A stretch of DNA of 32,325 bases, from NCBI GenBank assembly GCA_014338185.1, contig QUBV01000038.1, forward strand, positions 1 to 32,325, given 5' to 3'. The notes under the pieces are model-generated. The model worked only from the letters and a program-made list of their open reading frames with translations, was not told the origin of the DNA and made no database searches. The translations under genes and the position numbers were made by a program. Position 1 is the first letter of the stretch; each line of letters starts with the position of its first letter. This DNA is from Lysobacterales bacterium. GTDB taxonomy: Bacteria; Pseudomonadota; Gammaproteobacteria; Xanthomonadales; Rhodanobacteraceae. Positions 13,762 to 18,749 of this stretch are shown piece after piece.

Positions 13762-14943
13762 TCATCCGTCGAAGCCGTTGGCGAAGATCACATCGCCCAC
13801 GTAGAACCCGTGGCTGTAGGTGACACCTTCGTAGGTGGCGCGGAAGTGCCACAAGCCGCTCGGCGCATTGCCCGGCAACACGAAGTACCAGTACCAGTAC
13901 GCTGCCGCGTAGTACGGATCGCTGGTGGAATCGGCCATCTTGTGCGTCCACGCCGAATACACCGTGCCGTTGGGTCGCAGCAACGCATAGCTGGTGACCT
14001 GCTGCGCGAGCTGGTCGCGATAGTAGGCCACGAAGTAGGCGGTGGCGCCCGGCTGGAAGTGGTCGGAGAAATTGGGCGTCTCGGCCACCGGGTTCGGGCA
14101 GTTCGGGCTCGGGAACAGCGGCGGTGCGCTGTGGGTGGCCAGCTTGTTGATCGCCGAATCGTAGTAGGGCCGCTGCACCGCCCACAGCGAGGCCGGCGCA
14201 TTGCAGCTGCCGTGATAGGGCTCCAGCACCGTGTAGTTGCTCACCGCCGAGTGGTTCTCGAAGTGCAGGTGCGGCCCGGTCGAGAAGCCTGCGCTGCCGA
14301 CCTTGCCGAGGAACTCGCCGACCGCCACGCTCGCACCGACCGGCTTGCTGGTCAGCGAGAACTTCTTCATGTGGCCGTACCAGGCCACGCTGCCGTCGCC
14401 ATGCTGCACGTACACCGCGTTCCAGTCCGCGGAGTAGTGGTCGGGACAACTGCGGTCGTCGTTGCCGTCGGTCTTGCCGATGATCGTGCCGGGCGCGGCC
14501 GCGACGATGTCCACGGCCTGCTGGTCCATGCGCAACCACGCAAACGGCCACAGGAACAAATCGATCCCGCCATGGTTGTAACCATCGTCGAGGTCGTAGG
14601 TGCGCTCGCCGCAATTCCAGTCGAGCAGCGCATCCGGATAGGCCGGATCGAGGTCGACGAAATTGGATATGCCGTGGTAGGCCGGATCGGTCTGGCCCGC
14701 GGCCGCACGCAGCGGCCACTGCAGCCCGCCCTGCAGCGGCAGCGGGAACGGCGCCACCGGCGCGAGCTTGCCTTCGTGCCGCAGGCGCGCCACGTTGCGC
14801 GCCAGTTGCTCATCGATGCGCGCGCGCTGTTGCGGGCTGAGTTGGTCCTGCGGCGGATCAAAGCGTCCACCGCCGGCCGGTGCCTGTGCATGGGCCGCGG
14901 CGAGCGCGCCCGCCAACATCCACGGCAGTGCTGCGATCGGCAT
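13762..14943 (-). CDS. Secreted M23 metallopeptidase with IFxNGFD tail
   Basis: The 393-residue protein is an exported LytM-type (M23) zinc peptidase, a family that usually cuts peptidoglycan peptides or Gly-rich bonds. After a signal peptide (about 1-19, ending AHAQA) and a helical linker, the catalytic core carries His124 and Asp128 (HGGID), His191 (YGHM), and His225/His227 (GPHLHFE), so the active site looks complete. Residues about 245-385 form an extra aromatic-rich, probably beta-sandwich domain of unknown role. The chain ends in IFANGFDG, nearly identical to the tails of the next two genes. I prefer ATG 14943 because GGGGG lies 6 bp before it; ATG 14949 directly abuts that site. The stop is 6 bp from the convergent hisIE stop. 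Confidence 0.88.
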   Translation of the reverse strand: MPIAALPWMLAGALAAAHAQAPAGGGRFDPPQDQLSPQQRARIDEQLARNVARLRHEGKLAPVAPFPLPLQGGLQWPLRAAAGQTDPAYHGISNFVDLDPAYPDALLDWNCGERTYDLDDGYNHGGIDLFLWPFAWLRMDQQAVDIVAAAPGTIIGKTDGNDDRSCPDHYSADWNAVYVQHGDGSVAWYGHMKKFSLTSKPVGASVAVGEFLGKVGSAGFSTGPHLHFENHSAVSNYTVLEPYHGSCNAPASLWAVQRPYYDSAINKLATHSAPPLFPSPNCPNPVAETPNFSDHFQPGATAYFVAYYRDQLAQQVTSYALLRPNGTVYSAWTHKMADSTSDPYYAAAYWYWYFVLPGNAPSGLWHFRATYEGVTYSHGFYVGDVIFANGFDG

Positions 14944-14973
14944 GTCCATCCCCCCGGTGGCTGCGACGCGGCC

Positions 14974-14979
14974 ACGATA
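14974..14979 (-). promoter_or_regulatory. Putative -10 box for the M23 peptidase gene
   Basis: The minus strand reads TATCGT about 31 bp before the start at 14943. The match is moderate and no -35 box is obvious. The site lies in the 185-bp divergent region shared with the HzsA-like gene. Confidence 0.3.
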
Positions 14980-15021
14980 CGCCCGTGCAGGACACGCGGC
15001 AATCGACACCCGATCGGCCCG

Positions 15022-15049
15022 CTGCGACCATCTCGACCAGCGGTCGCAG
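15022..15049. promoter_or_regulatory. Inverted repeat in the divergent M23 / HzsA-like intergenic region
   Basis: CTGCGACC (15022-15029) and GGTCGCAG (15042-15049) are perfect 8-bp inverted arms around a 12-bp centre. A further CTGCGAC copy lies at 14961-14967, beside the M23 start. The placement between divergent genes and about 40 bp upstream of the plus-strand -10 box suits a regulator site, but a hairpin or chance are also possible. Confidence 0.35.
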
Positions 15050-15089
15050 GCGTGTGACCGGCGGCACGCCCGCGTGCGGCCGGCGCCGC

Positions 15090-15095
15090 TACATT
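15090..15095 (+). promoter_or_regulatory. Putative -10 box for the HzsA-like gene
   Basis: TACATT within GCTACATT lies 33 bp before the ATG at 15129. The predicted leader is about 27 nt. No -35 consensus is visible. Confidence 0.4.
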
Positions 15096-15128
15096 GCACG
15101 CCGTCACCCTTACCGTGTCCGGACTCCC

Positions 15129-18098
15129 ATGCCTCGCGACTGCTCGCCATCCGGCCTTGCCCGCTGCCTGCCCCTCCTGCTCGGCCTGCTCGCCGCGCCG
15201 CTGGCCAGCGCACAGGTGCAACGCGACTACGACATCGTCTACGTGCGCCAGGCGCGCTTTGGCGACCAGACCAACACCACCTGGCCCGAGGTCGGCCACC
15301 CGGCACTGATCGATCCGGGCGCCGACCTCATGCTGCTGCACCCCGACGGCAGCGAGGAGGTGCTCGTCGCGGCGGGCAACGGCGCCGTCACCGATCCGGT
15401 GCTGTCCTTCGACGCGCGCCACGTCTACTACAGCTACTTCCCCGACATGCGGGCCGGCGCGATCAACACCCAGCGCGACCTGCCCTACCAGGGCGCCGAC
15501 ATCTACCGGCTCGACCTCGTCACGCGCCAGGTCCAGCGGCTGACCTTCGGTGAGTTCACGCCCAACACCGGCGCCGGCCACTGGGACGAGACCAACCCGG
15601 TCGACCCGCCCAGCGGCTTCAACCGGCTCGGCTACGGCATCCTCAACCTCGGCCCGATGCCGCTGCCGGGCGGCAAGCTCGCCTTCACCAGCAACCGCAA
15701 CGGCTTCATCCCGCCCAAACGCTTCACCAATCCGACGCTGCAGCTGTACGTGATGGATGGCAACGGCGAGAACGTGACCCCGATTGCGCCGATGTCGATT
15801 TCCAGCGCGCTGCATCCGACGGTCCTCGCCGACGGCCGCCTCATGTTCAGCAGCCACGAAAGCCAGGGGCTGCGCGACCGGCGCCTGTGGGGCCTGTGGA
15901 GCATCTGGCCGGATGGCCGGCACTGGCAGCCGCTGGTCAGCGCCTTCCACCAGCCGCAGTCGTTCCATTTCATGACCCAGCTCGGCGGCGGCGACCTCGT
16001 GGTCGTGGACTACTACAACTTCAACAACAACGGCTTCGGCGCGCTGTACCGGCTGCCAGCGCAGCCGCCTGCGGGCCAGCCGGCGTTCCACGACGCGTTC
16101 GCGAGCGACGCTCCGCCCATCGGTCGCACGCTCGGTTCGGGCACCTGGTATCCGTTCACGATGCCGTTCCAGCCGCGCGGCCTGTACTCGCTCACCCCAT
16201 TCACGCTCAGCGACGACGAAGCGGCACCGGTAGGCAGCAACGGCCAGCGCGTGGGCAAGTTCACCCAGCCCTCGGCGGCGCCGCACGACGACCTGCTGGT
16301 GGTGTGGACCCCGGGACCCGCCAACGACCTCAACCGGCCGACGCCGGTGCCGTACTACGACGCCGGCATCTACCTGATTGCCGGCGGCAACGTGATCAAC
16401 TCGCCGCAGCAACTGGTGCTGGTCAAGAACGACCCGAACTGGAACGAAGCCTGGCCGCGCGCGGTGGTGCCCTACGCGACGATCCACGGCATGGCCGAAC
16501 CGGCGCAGTTGCCATGGTTGCCCAACGACGGCAGCGTGCATCCGGCCTTGCCCGAAGGCACGCCCTATGGCCTGGTCGGCAGCTCGAGCTTCTACAAGCG
16601 CGAGAGCTTCCCGGGACTGGTGATCCCGTGGTCCAACAGCTTCGACGGCCTCGACGTGTTCAACACCAGCGAGAACGGCCAGTCGAGCAACTGGGAGGCG
16701 CAGGGCGCCGATGCGGGCAAGTACGACAACGCCGACATCTGGGCGGTGCGCGTCCTCGCCATGGAACCCAACACCCACCGCAGCTACGGTCCCGACGAAG
16801 GCATGCAGTTCTTCAGCCACGCCCACGAGCGCCTGCGCGTGCTGGGTGAAATCCCGCTGCGCAAGACCGGCGCGGGTGGCCAGCCCCTGCTCGATGCCGA
16901 AGGCAATCCCGACACCAGCTTCCTCGCCCGCATCGTGGCCGATACGCCCTTCACCTTCCAGACGCTGGACCGGCACGGCATGGTGCTCAACATGTCGCAG
17001 ACCTGGCACCAGCTGCGGCCGGGTGAAATGCGCGCCGACTGCGGTGGCTGCCATGCCCACAGCCAGCAACCGCTCGCGTTCGAGACCACCGCGGCCGGGC
17101 AGCCCGGTTTCGATGTCATCGACCTCGTCCACACCACGCCGCTGCTCACCGAAGCTGGCGGCGAGCCCGCGCTGCGCGTCGAGGACGCCACCCACGTCGA
17201 CGTCGAGTTCCTGCGCGACATCCGCCCCATCCTGCAGGCCCGCTGCGCCAGCTGCCACCAGGGCAGCAATCCGCCGGGCCAACTCGACCTGGCCGACACC
17301 AGCGAGATCGTGGTCAACATCGAAGGCGGCAACCTGCACTTGCCGCGCGACTACTACCGGCTGGCTGCCGACAGCGCGGGTGATTTCGGCTACCCGTCGC
17401 TGCTGCCCAACGGCAACTGGCGCCAGACCAACGCGAGCCGCTACCTGCGCCCGTTCCAGAGCCGGCGCAGCCTGCTGGTGTGGAAGCTGTTCGGCGCGCG
17501 GCTCGACGGCTGGAGCAACGCCGACCATCCGACCGAATCGGTGCCCGGCAATGCCGCGACGCTGCCCGCCGGCGCCGATCCCAACGCCGCCGACATCGAC
17601 TACACCGGCGCGATCATGCCGCCGCCACCGGCGTTGCCGCTCAGCGCCGAGGAGCGGCTCAAGTTCGTGCGCTGGATCGACCTGGGCGCGCCCATCGACC
17701 ACGGCAATCCGGCGCGTGGCTGGCTGCTCGATGACCTCAAGCCGACGCTCACGATCAGCTCACCGCGCCCCGGCATGAACCCCGCACCGCTGGGCGTGCT
17801 GCGCATCGGCAGCGCCGACGCCAATTCCGGCATCGCGGCCGGTTCGTTGTCGGTCACCGCCGACTTCGCGGTCAACGGGCGCGCCGCCGGCAGCGAGCTG
17901 GCGGATCTCGCCCTCGCCGTGGCCGACGGCGTGCGCGAGATCGTGCTGGATCCGCCGCTCGCGCAGCTCAACCACCGTCACGTCAACGCCCAGGTGTACG
18001 ACCAGCAGGGCAATGTCACGCGCGTGCGGGTGGCCTTCAGCGTCAACGCCCACCTCGATGCGATCTTCACCGACGGCTTCGATCCGCCGGTGCCGTGA
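15129..18098 (+). CDS. Exported dihaem beta-propeller protein resembling hydrazine synthase alpha (HzsA-related)
   Basis: The 989-residue product has a signal peptide (about 1-28, ending ASAQ), then a long region with propeller-like strands such as LAFTSNRNGF and LYVMDGNGENV (TolB/PD40-like repeats), and two c-type haem sites: CGGCH at 638-642 and CASCH at 706-710. The second is followed by the cytochrome-like segment LSAEERLKFVRWIDLGAPI near residue 840. Residues about 870-975 look like an Ig-type beta domain, and the chain ends IFTDGFDPPVP. The N-terminal/propeller/dihaem layout resembles the alpha subunit of anammox hydrazine synthase and its wider family. From memory, that enzyme's first haem is bound by a Tyr four residues after CxxCH; here that position is Gln646, and no hzsB/C-like gene is nearby. 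A periplasmic or surface redox role is likely; hydrazine synthesis is not. Confidence 0.75.
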   Translation: MPRDCSPSGLARCLPLLLGLLAAPLASAQVQRDYDIVYVRQARFGDQTNTTWPEVGHPALIDPGADLMLLHPDGSEEVLVAAGNGAVTDPVLSFDARHVYYSYFPDMRAGAINTQRDLPYQGADIYRLDLVTRQVQRLTFGEFTPNTGAGHWDETNPVDPPSGFNRLGYGILNLGPMPLPGGKLAFTSNRNGFIPPKRFTNPTLQLYVMDGNGENVTPIAPMSISSALHPTVLADGRLMFSSHESQGLRDRRLWGLWSIWPDGRHWQPLVSAFHQPQSFHFMTQLGGGDLVVVDYYNFNNNGFGALYRLPAQPPAGQPAFHDAFASDAPPIGRTLGSGTWYPFTMPFQPRGLYSLTPFTLSDDEAAPVGSNGQRVGKFTQPSAAPHDDLLVVWTPGPANDLNRPTPVPYYDAGIYLIAGGNVINSPQQLVLVKNDPNWNEAWPRAVVPYATIHGMAEPAQLPWLPNDGSVHPALPEGTPYGLVGSSSFYKRESFPGLVIPWSNSFDGLDVFNTSENGQSSNWEAQGADAGKYDNADIWAVRVLAMEPNTHRSYGPDEGMQFFSHAHERLRVLGEIPLRKTGAGGQPLLDAEGNPDTSFLARIVADTPFTFQTLDRHGMVLNMSQTWHQLRPGEMRADCGGCHAHSQQPLAFETTAAGQPGFDVIDLVHTTPLLTEAGGEPALRVEDATHVDVEFLRDIRPILQARCASCHQGSNPPGQLDLADTSEIVVNIEGGNLHLPRDYYRLAADSAGDFGYPSLLPNGNWRQTNASRYLRPFQSRRSLLVWKLFGARLDGWSNADHPTESVPGNAATLPAGADPNAADIDYTGAIMPPPPALPLSAEERLKFVRWIDLGAPIDHGNPARGWLLDDLKPTLTISSPRPGMNPAPLGVLRIGSADANSGIAAGSLSVTADFAVNGRAAGSELADLALAVADGVREIVLDPPLAQLNHRHVNAQVYDQQGNVTRVRVAFSVNAHLDAIFTDGFDPPVP

Positions 18099-18105
18099 GC
18101 GCAGC

Positions 18106-18133
18106 GCGCAGGCCACGACACCGTGGCCTGCGC
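18106..18133. terminator. Strong bidirectional hairpin between convergent genes
   Basis: GCGCAGGCCACG and its exact complement form a perfect 12-bp stem with the tetraloop ACAC. It fills the 36-bp gap between the convergent HzsA-like gene (stop 18098) and the small exported protein gene (stop 18135). It has no T-tract on either strand, but the position and stem argue for a shared terminator. Confidence 0.7.
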
Positions 18134-18134
18134 C

Positions 18135-18749
18135 TCAGGGGTCGAAGCCGTCGACGAAGATCTTGTCCGGATCGCCCGCGGGCGGCGTGAAGTCGCCGGC
18201 CAGCTGCAGCGCGATGCTGTTGCTGTTGCCGGCCAGCGCGGCGTTGATCTGGCTGGCGAAGCCGCCGCAGGCATCGGTGGTGGGCGGTACCGTGAACGCG
18301 CGATCCTCGAGTTCGAGCCCGCCGGGACCGCCGCTGCCGGACAGGTCGAGATCGATCGGCGTGAAGTGGCAGGGATCGGTGCCGATCGGCACCGGCACCG
18401 CGATCCACAGGACCGCCAGCGTCATCGCCACCGGCTCCATCACCGCCACGCCATCACTGGCCACCAGCGCGCCCGCAGGATCAGCCTGCGACAGCTGGTA
18501 GGTGACGGTCGCCATGCCCACGCCGTCGATCGGCACCTGGATGCTCGACTGCGGGAAGGTGAAGCGGCCGGCGCCGAGGATGCCGCTGAGCGGGTCGTAC
18601 ACCGAGTCGCCGAAGCTGCCATTGGGCAGGGCGTAGGCCGTGCCGTTGACGGTGATCGAACCGGTGACCGGGAACTGCACCGCACCGGCGCTGCCGGCAG
18701 CCAGTGCGAGCAGCGCGGCGATGGCAAGCCGCGGGGTGTGTCGAGTCAT
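18135..18749 (-). CDS. Small exported protein of unknown function with IFVDGFD tail
   Basis: I do not recognise this 204-residue protein. It starts with a clear signal peptide (about 1-23, LAIAALLALAAGSAGA then VQFPV), continues with a beta-rich body (SITVNGTAYALPNGSFGDSVYD near 31-52), contains two cysteines (Cys127, Cys161) that could form a disulfide, and ends IFVDGFDP. That tail matches those of the two preceding genes. The ATG at 18749 has AAGGA about 9 bp upstream; an upstream ATG at 18791 would spoil the signal peptide. The gene lies 38 bp after the S9 peptidase gene on the same strand and may be cotranscribed with it. An extracellular or surface location is likely; function is open. 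Confidence 0.75.
   Translation of the reverse strand: MTRHTPRLAIAALLALAAGSAGAVQFPVTGSITVNGTAYALPNGSFGDSVYDPLSGILGAGRFTFPQSSIQVPIDGVGMATVTYQLSQADPAGALVASDGVAVMEPVAMTLAVLWIAVPVPIGTDPCHFTPIDLDLSGSGGPGGLELEDRAFTVPPTTDACGGFASQINAALAGNSNSIALQLAGDFTPPAGDPDKIFVDGFDP

Follow-up and report, generated by a model that had tools for sequence, protein, structure and literature searches.

In bacteria of the order Lysobacterales, dozens of mostly unrelated proteins carry the same short peptide, usually at their C-terminus. This tail is a real, conserved, export-associated tag. As far as sequence comparison can tell, it recurs as an add-on to very different domains, is conserved with lineage variants and co-occurs with the canonical type II secretion system (T2SS), in which GspC ends in a PDZ domain. 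This PDZ-type T2SS is the most likely reader of the tail, surface retention after export being the main rival. The function that we infer, that of a short linear export tag tied to this system, has in our estimate a probability of about 0.5.

The window, that is, the whole stretch of 32,325 nucleotides analysed here, corresponds to a single contig of a draft genome of 3.17 Mb in 118 contigs. Three of its genes carry the tail. They occupy an ordinary chromosomal place, with histidine biosynthesis genes on one side and an S9 peptidase gene on the other:

13762..14943, minus strand: M23 peptidase gene P0001 (Peptidase_M23, E 2.5e-14; start codon picked by eye)
13765..13794, minus strand: P0001 tail, DVIFANGFDG, exact or variant in eight of nine relatives in the order, predicted to be disordered
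15129..18098, plus strand: gene of the HzsA-like protein P0003, tail-bearing
18057..18095, plus strand: P0003 tail, DAIFTDGFDPPVP; the L219 relative (89% identity) ends in DAIFTDGFDPLAR
18135..18749, minus strand: P0002, small exported protein of unassigned function, tail-bearing
18138..18167, minus strand: P0002 tail, DKIFVDGFDP, from the pattern match and the translated ending

In translation, P0001 ends in ...GDVIFANGFDG* (motif codons 13768-13788, minus strand), P0003 in ...LDAIFTDGFDPPVP (18063-18083, plus strand) and P0002 in ...PDKIFVDGFDP (18141-18161, minus strand), with one, four and one residues, respectively, between the motif and the stop. The initial annotation had read these endings correctly, as IF-x-[DN]-G-F-D at 1-4 residues from the stop. 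It had also given all three proteins an N-terminal signal peptide. By eye, P0002 and P0003 indeed start with ordinary signal peptides, whereas P0001 has a hydrophobic start without basic residue at the chosen ATG, which makes its true start less sure. The closest named relative of the peptidase is found in Dokdonella (81% identity; Rhodanobacteraceae, Lysobacterales). Relatives of P0002 end in DKIFVDGFDG (L219), DIIFANGFDGG (L221) and VDLIFADGFD (L224). One of 54 tail proteins scanned, which one being unspecified, gave a hydrazine synthase alpha match (E 1.1e-19). Convergent gene pairs with two tails facing each other within about 50-120 bases are observed in the window (18063-18161) and at C32:20761/20878 (L075), C62:34043/34163 (L036) and G042:C13:8176/8227 (L248).

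The recurrence of the motif was assessed over the whole 3.17 Mb genome with the degenerate DNA pattern NTNTTYNNNRAYGGNTTYGAN, the reversed pattern serving as a control. The peptide [x]F-x-[DN]-G-F-[DE] was matched 71 times, against a single match for the control, and this recurrence is not due to chance. The flanks were read for each of the 71 matches. Fifty-seven are in frame and at most 25 residues from the stop, which gives 56 distinct copies after removal of a duplicated contig end. Contigs C87 and C118 of this genome (G000; L045, L057) share one tail-bearing gene end, which implies that the break in the assembly falls within a repeat or a tail gene. From the 56 copies, a fuller consensus is D-x-[IVL]-F-x-[DN]-G-F-[DE], where the Asp at position -2 is present in 52 copies although the pattern did not demand it. 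At the other positions, I, V and L are found 47, 5 and 4 times, D and N 31 and 25 times, and the final D and E 35 and 21 times, the search pattern having imposed F, G and F as well as the alternatives D/N and D/E. Sixteen of the 56 proteins stop exactly at the final D/E of the motif and 12 more stop one residue later, with 0-16 residues after the motif over all copies. When 54 of the 57 ORFs are aligned with MAFFT (three truncated or very short ones being left out), the only invariant columns are the start Met and the F, G, F of the tail, and mean column identity is 8%. At the DNA level, the closeness of the three window tails pointed out in the initial annotation is visible. Codon bias yields that much: in 55 tails, the two Phe are encoded by TTC 51 and 53 times and Gly by GGC 44 times, compared to 90% and 73%, respectively, in these proteins outside the tail.

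The 14 other matches lie more than 25 residues from the stop, one of them at 28 residues. By eye, four are directly behind a signal peptide and others between domains; the one found in a cytidylate kinase looks like a chance match. Weak M36 family matches (best E 1e-10 to 1e-12) were obtained among these 14 proteins, rhombosortase-dependent in two cases, myxosortase-dependent in one and T9SS-dependent in one. Motifs right behind the signal peptide were noted by eye at L035 (minus strand), L038, L068, L071 and L148. Some internal copies are followed by at least 100 residues of other sequence, and in L076 (minus, 4418) and L077 (minus, 4467) the motif appears, again by eye, to precede a common C-terminal stretch of ~120 residues.

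In the own genome, the tail is carried by mostly unrelated proteins. Pfam and NCBIfam families among 54 of them (the 25 commonest, for NCBIfam out of 43) include beta-helix, RCC1, LRR, GH5, GH44, pectate lyase and endonuclease I, as well as M14, M23, reprolysin, sugar dehydrogenase and plastocyanin. Choice-of-anchor families are represented by Q in nine of the 54 and J in one. A crude predictor assigns a signal-peptide-like start to 27 of the 40 tail ORFs that pass a GC3 filter (hence 40 rather than 56) and to 77 of the 262 remaining coding-like ORFs that pass it in the same loci; the other 13 tail ORFs have no such start. By this crude measure, the tail is enriched on proteins with signal-peptide-like starts, so that one of the two refuting conditions named in the initial annotation, a motif no commoner on exported proteins than elsewhere, does not apply. 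A laxer predictor, used with no control, gave 47 of 57 tail ORFs.

Comparison of relatives presents the tail as an add-on to domains, conserved with lineage variants. Relatives of the M23 peptidase were read at 25 loci, nine labelled Lysobacterales or Xanthomonadales and 14 Bacteroidota or Ignavibacteria. Within the order, eight of nine end in the tail, four in its strict form and four in variants (IFADNFE twice, IFADGYD and IFASSFD); in the ninth, L242 (uncultured Xanthomonadales, 39% identity), no tail is seen, the contig ending first. In Bacteroidota and Ignavibacteria, the T9SS sorting domain TIGR04183 is found in eight of the nine relatives scanned (of 14), L238 being without it. A Granulosicoccaceae relative has a 3-coathanger stack domain, and L228 is cut. 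At E 1e-3, 119 of the 151 genomes have a relative of the sugar dehydrogenase, and 30 loci were read. In most of these PQQ sugar dehydrogenase orthologues, the common end of the enzyme is followed by a variable linker and by variants of the tail. Four of the 30 have no tail (L094, L104, L107 and L113), L106 runs on into a different sequence, and L089 and L112 have degenerate tails. The tail-less L094 belongs to G117, which otherwise has 11 strict tails as well as a canonical T2SS. GH5 cellulases of the tail-free genomes G061, G101 and G141 (46-52% identity) end at the domain boundary with no motif in nine of nine copies. In an AlphaFold model of P0001 made from 22 sequences (mean pLDDT 80.6), residues 375-383 form a confident strand and residues 389-394, with pLDDT <50, are predicted as a disordered tail. 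Ten exact tails compared with Pfam gave no match beyond one at E 0.14.

Across the order, the strict pattern is present in 86 of 151 genomes, 32 of which have at least 20 copies, with a maximum of 80 per genome. The impression conveyed by the initial annotation, that such endings recur in exported proteins of Lysobacterales, is thus borne out, both by the 71 matches of the own genome and by these counts elsewhere. Presence of the tail is largely on or off by genus. Within a sample of 274 genomes of the class, the highest count in the 271 that lie outside the order is three copies; by these counts, the tail is abundant in Lysobacterales and restricted to them at more than three copies. In G098, G041 and G005, 51 of the 55 matches read are within 25 residues of the stop and two more within 28; in the remaining two, the motif precedes a further domain (L126) or stands right behind a signal-peptide-like start (L148). 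Tandem double tails, such as DLIFRDGFDNSDLIFFNGFEES and DLIFSNGFESDVIFKDGFE, are seen in five proteins of G098 (L115, L128, L129, L133 and L110), one of which is the sugar dehydrogenase.

Lineages differ in the wording of the tail. AT-rich relatives (family f9) encode the same peptide with other codons. An Arg dialect, D-R-F-E, was searched in all 151 genomes. Of the 16 genomes in genera g23 and g62 of family f10, 15 hold 10-89 copies of it; outside f10 it stays at six copies or fewer, except for 11 in G150. In f10, genomes G037, G099, G124, G009, G134 and G139 have 39-89 copies each. The sugar dehydrogenases of G064 and G143 end in A-H-G-F-E, and tails of the form L-F-x-[DN]-G-F-E occur in family f7, at three of three loci in G006 and two of three in G017. 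G019 (f9, genus g29) is an odd member of its family: its RpsA is 45% identical to the query, against at least 64% for the other full-length matches, and it has neither a GspG match nor a strict tail.

The own genome encodes GspG (E 5.7e-54) and GspC (E 6.8e-23) of a T2SS. Across the order, GspG (TIGR01710) falls into score classes. In the canonical-class loci read, the operon starts with gspG, with K, L, M and N assigned by model match and H-J by position, and mostly adjoins rsmE, often also Chp genes. All five GspC scanned give a T2SSC + PDZ match, two of them above the Pfam cut-off. In family f1, taking the own GspG as query, five of five tail genomes are canonical (the own one and others at 69-74% identity); among the 20 tail-free ones, 16 have a GspG at no more than 46% identity, two give weaker matches and two none. 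At the tail-free f1 loci L175 and L176, the T2SS genes are arranged otherwise, and XpsI is matched below its cut-off. In family f2, the one tail genome has a GspG at 69%, nine others are at 42-58% and fourteen have none at E 1e-25.

Among the 104 genomes that are at least 97% complete, GspC (TIGR01713) is found in 49 of 50 tail genomes and in three of 54 tail-free ones. For all 151 genomes, the counts are 78 of 83 tail-labelled and seven of 68 others, given author-chosen thresholds: at least three strict or eight R-variant copies for the tail label and E 1e-7 for GspC, a cut that the partial matches of G097 and G114 pass. In the first test, based on the GspG score alone, 28 of 83 tail-free genomes were T2SS-positive. 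Most of them were either f2 genomes that have another T2SS (nine) or f10 genomes whose tail is of the DRFE type. Three of these f2 systems, read at L165-L167, have other neighbourhoods, and the remaining six were judged by identity (no more than 58%). Genus g23 of f10, which has a T2SS but few strict tails, was an apparent exception that the search for the DRFE variant resolved. Since both corrections were made after the exceptions had been seen, the final tables are partly post hoc. Tail-labelled genomes without GspC are G048, G059, G063, G118 and G122. Conversely, G006, G017, G061, G064, G082, G089 and G127 have GspC and no tail label, although reading revealed variant tails in G006, G017 and G064. 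In family f8, C-terminal tails occur without a canonical T2SS match in G042 (two, L248 and L260), G097 (L262) and G122 (L253); these may be remnants or have another reader.

An RpsA tree, which holds 110 of the 151 genomes (five have no RpsA match and 36 were left out), shows 12 changes of tail and six of T2SS. With the variant tails of f7 and G064 counted as absent, eight independent pairs on supported branches differ in tail: the T2SS differs in the same way in about three, in the opposite way in none, and does not differ in five (sign test, p 0.25). In the reverse test, the tail follows in about 2.5 of four pairs that differ in T2SS. The genome-level tables are thus pseudoreplicated, since there are only about three independent co-losses. 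Secretion genes co-occurring with the tail, which the initial annotation had proposed to look for, do exist; the correlation is striking in extent but rests on few events, and it would be shared by any other gene whose losses fell on these branches.

The tail does not serve T2SS in general. Systems of the PDZ type are described outside the order in V. cholerae and D. dadantii (excerpts of the T2SS papers cited below), yet the 271 genomes sampled from the rest of the class, which may not include the genera of these two species, show no tail enrichment. In Xanthomonas, XpsC has a single helix where the PDZ fold would be (excerpts of PMC11981180).

Considering these data, the following sequence of events may be envisaged. 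Tail proteins would cross the inner membrane via their N-terminal signal peptide and would fold in the periplasm, leaving the tail flexible and exposed. The tag would usually sit at the C-terminus, sometimes behind the signal peptide or between domains, and would sometimes be doubled. The canonical T2SS, whose GspC ends in a PDZ domain, would then recruit the protein via the tail, directly or through an adaptor, and export it, the PDZ domain being the candidate docking site. One substrate, in which the signal resides in an Ig-fold, depends on the EpsC PDZ domain (excerpts of PMC12369372). A bolder formulation, which we hold tentatively and at somewhat less than even odds, would see a portable seven-residue T2SS signal, read at either end or internally and spoken in DGFE, DRFE and AHGFE dialects; these dialects should then co-vary with the reader. 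The proposal of a tag for a dedicated machine, made from the window, survives in part: the tail is best read as a tag for secretion or for the surface, but the system that it follows is a specific, ordinary T2SS.

The main competing explanation, which we regard as unlikely though worth serious attention, is surface retention. Export by the T2SS would depend on other features, and the tail would then dock non-covalently to a receptor of the outer membrane or matrix. In favour of this reading, GlyGly-CTERM gives membrane association in V. cholerae and export needs a second signal (excerpts of PMC13393428). The same comparative data apply: the T2SS correlation would follow since the tag is of use to exported proteins alone, the exchange for T9SS sorting domains in the M23 family fits attachment as well as export, and doubled tails fit avidity. 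However, no receptor candidate emerged from a search confined to T2SS parts and adjacent genes (Chp chemosensory, rsmE, aminotransferase, inositol monophosphatase and MazG), and many payloads resemble enzymes that are normally released.

It is less probable still that the tail serves another machine, such as a processing protease, a chaperone or a transpeptidase, whose losses fell on the branches where the canonical T2SS disappeared too. The small number of independent co-losses that back the T2SS leaves room for such a machine, as do the few tails retained in f8 genomes without a canonical T2SS. Nevertheless, the T2SS is the expected route of folded signal-peptide proteins, the tail split is seen with two T2SS genes, GspG and GspC, and an intramembrane sortase would find neither a transmembrane helix nor a basic cluster in the tail.

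Many beta-sandwich domains start with a D-G-F-E-like strand, and it might be imagined that the tail is a structural cap or the degenerate remnant of such a domain start, with no role of its own. The internal copies that are followed by at least 100 residues of other sequence would suit this idea. It is nonetheless very doubtful: in 16 of the 56 proteins nothing follows the D/E of the motif, LRR, RCC1, beta-helix, GH5, reprolysin and plastocyanin folds carry the tail alike, tails are doubled in tandem and disordered in the single model made, and the ten exact tails have no Pfam match except the one at E 0.14. Finally, the idea that recombination has recently carried a DNA segment from gene to gene, the other origin considered in the initial annotation, was rejected on codon usage and on the coding of relatives and is highly improbable: the close DNA of the three window copies and BLAST matches of the M23 tail DNA elsewhere in the genome would agree with it, but the likeness is confined to tail codons and accounted for by codon bias, the flanks are unrelated, AT-rich relatives code the same peptide differently and orthologues keep their own tails across families.

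An export tag read by the canonical T2SS would bear on an old open question, that of cargo choice by the T2SS. According to a 2025 paper, a conserved signal for T2S outer-membrane transport 'has not yet been identified' (excerpt of PMC11981180). No shared linear T2SS signal is known in the literature searched, and no earlier description of the motif was found in the open-licence PMC literature, preprints being outside its scope. Carriers of the tail are soil and water bacteria, and the tail is nearly confined to species that have this one type of outer-membrane secretion machine. A short tag on dozens of proteins, with natural dialects and losses, makes cargo choice testable through deletion or grafting of a few residues. 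If the reading is true, secretomes of poorly known environmental genera could be listed from sequence, and a portable export tag would be at hand.

As far as tested, the tail is not a known CTERM or T9SS signal. No hydrophobic helix follows the motif in the listed extensions of the 56 copies, in line with the view, taken in the initial annotation, that neither helix nor basic cluster is present and that the tail is no LPXTG- or PEP-CTERM-like anchor. Among the 25 of 43 NCBIfam families shown for the 54 proteins, there is neither a CTERM model nor TIGR04183. Ten tail peptides compared with NCBIfam (peptides 4 and 6 with inexact upstream letters) gave only one weak choice_anch_Q match. The T9SS type A domain of Bacteroidota, TIGR04183, resembles the tail in being C-terminal, in having many payloads and in occupying the position that the tail has in the M23 family. 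However, it is a 72-position domain that goes with T9SS machinery, whereas the tail has 7-9 residues, is predicted to be disordered and belongs to Gammaproteobacteria. The GlyGly-CTERM/rhombosortase, MYXO-CTERM/myxosortase and PEP-CTERM/exosortase systems also place a short C-terminal signature on exported proteins, with related payload families. In all three signals, the motif is followed by a helix and a basic cluster. These additional parts set them apart, no such parts following the Lysobacterales tail. MYXO-CTERM, which occurs on dozens of proteins per genome, is tripartite, with further parts after the motif (excerpts of PMC11980579). It is handled by an intramembrane protease. GlyGly-CTERM proteins are T2SS substrates (excerpts of PMC13393428). 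Among T2SS determinants, the Pel3 loops and the Ig-fold of VesB are, like the tail, flexible segments on folded periplasmic proteins, and the GspC PDZ domain has been implicated for VesB and PelI (excerpts of PMC7949064 and PMC12369372). These determinants are composite or structural, whereas the Lysobacterales tail is one fixed peptide on dozens of proteins.
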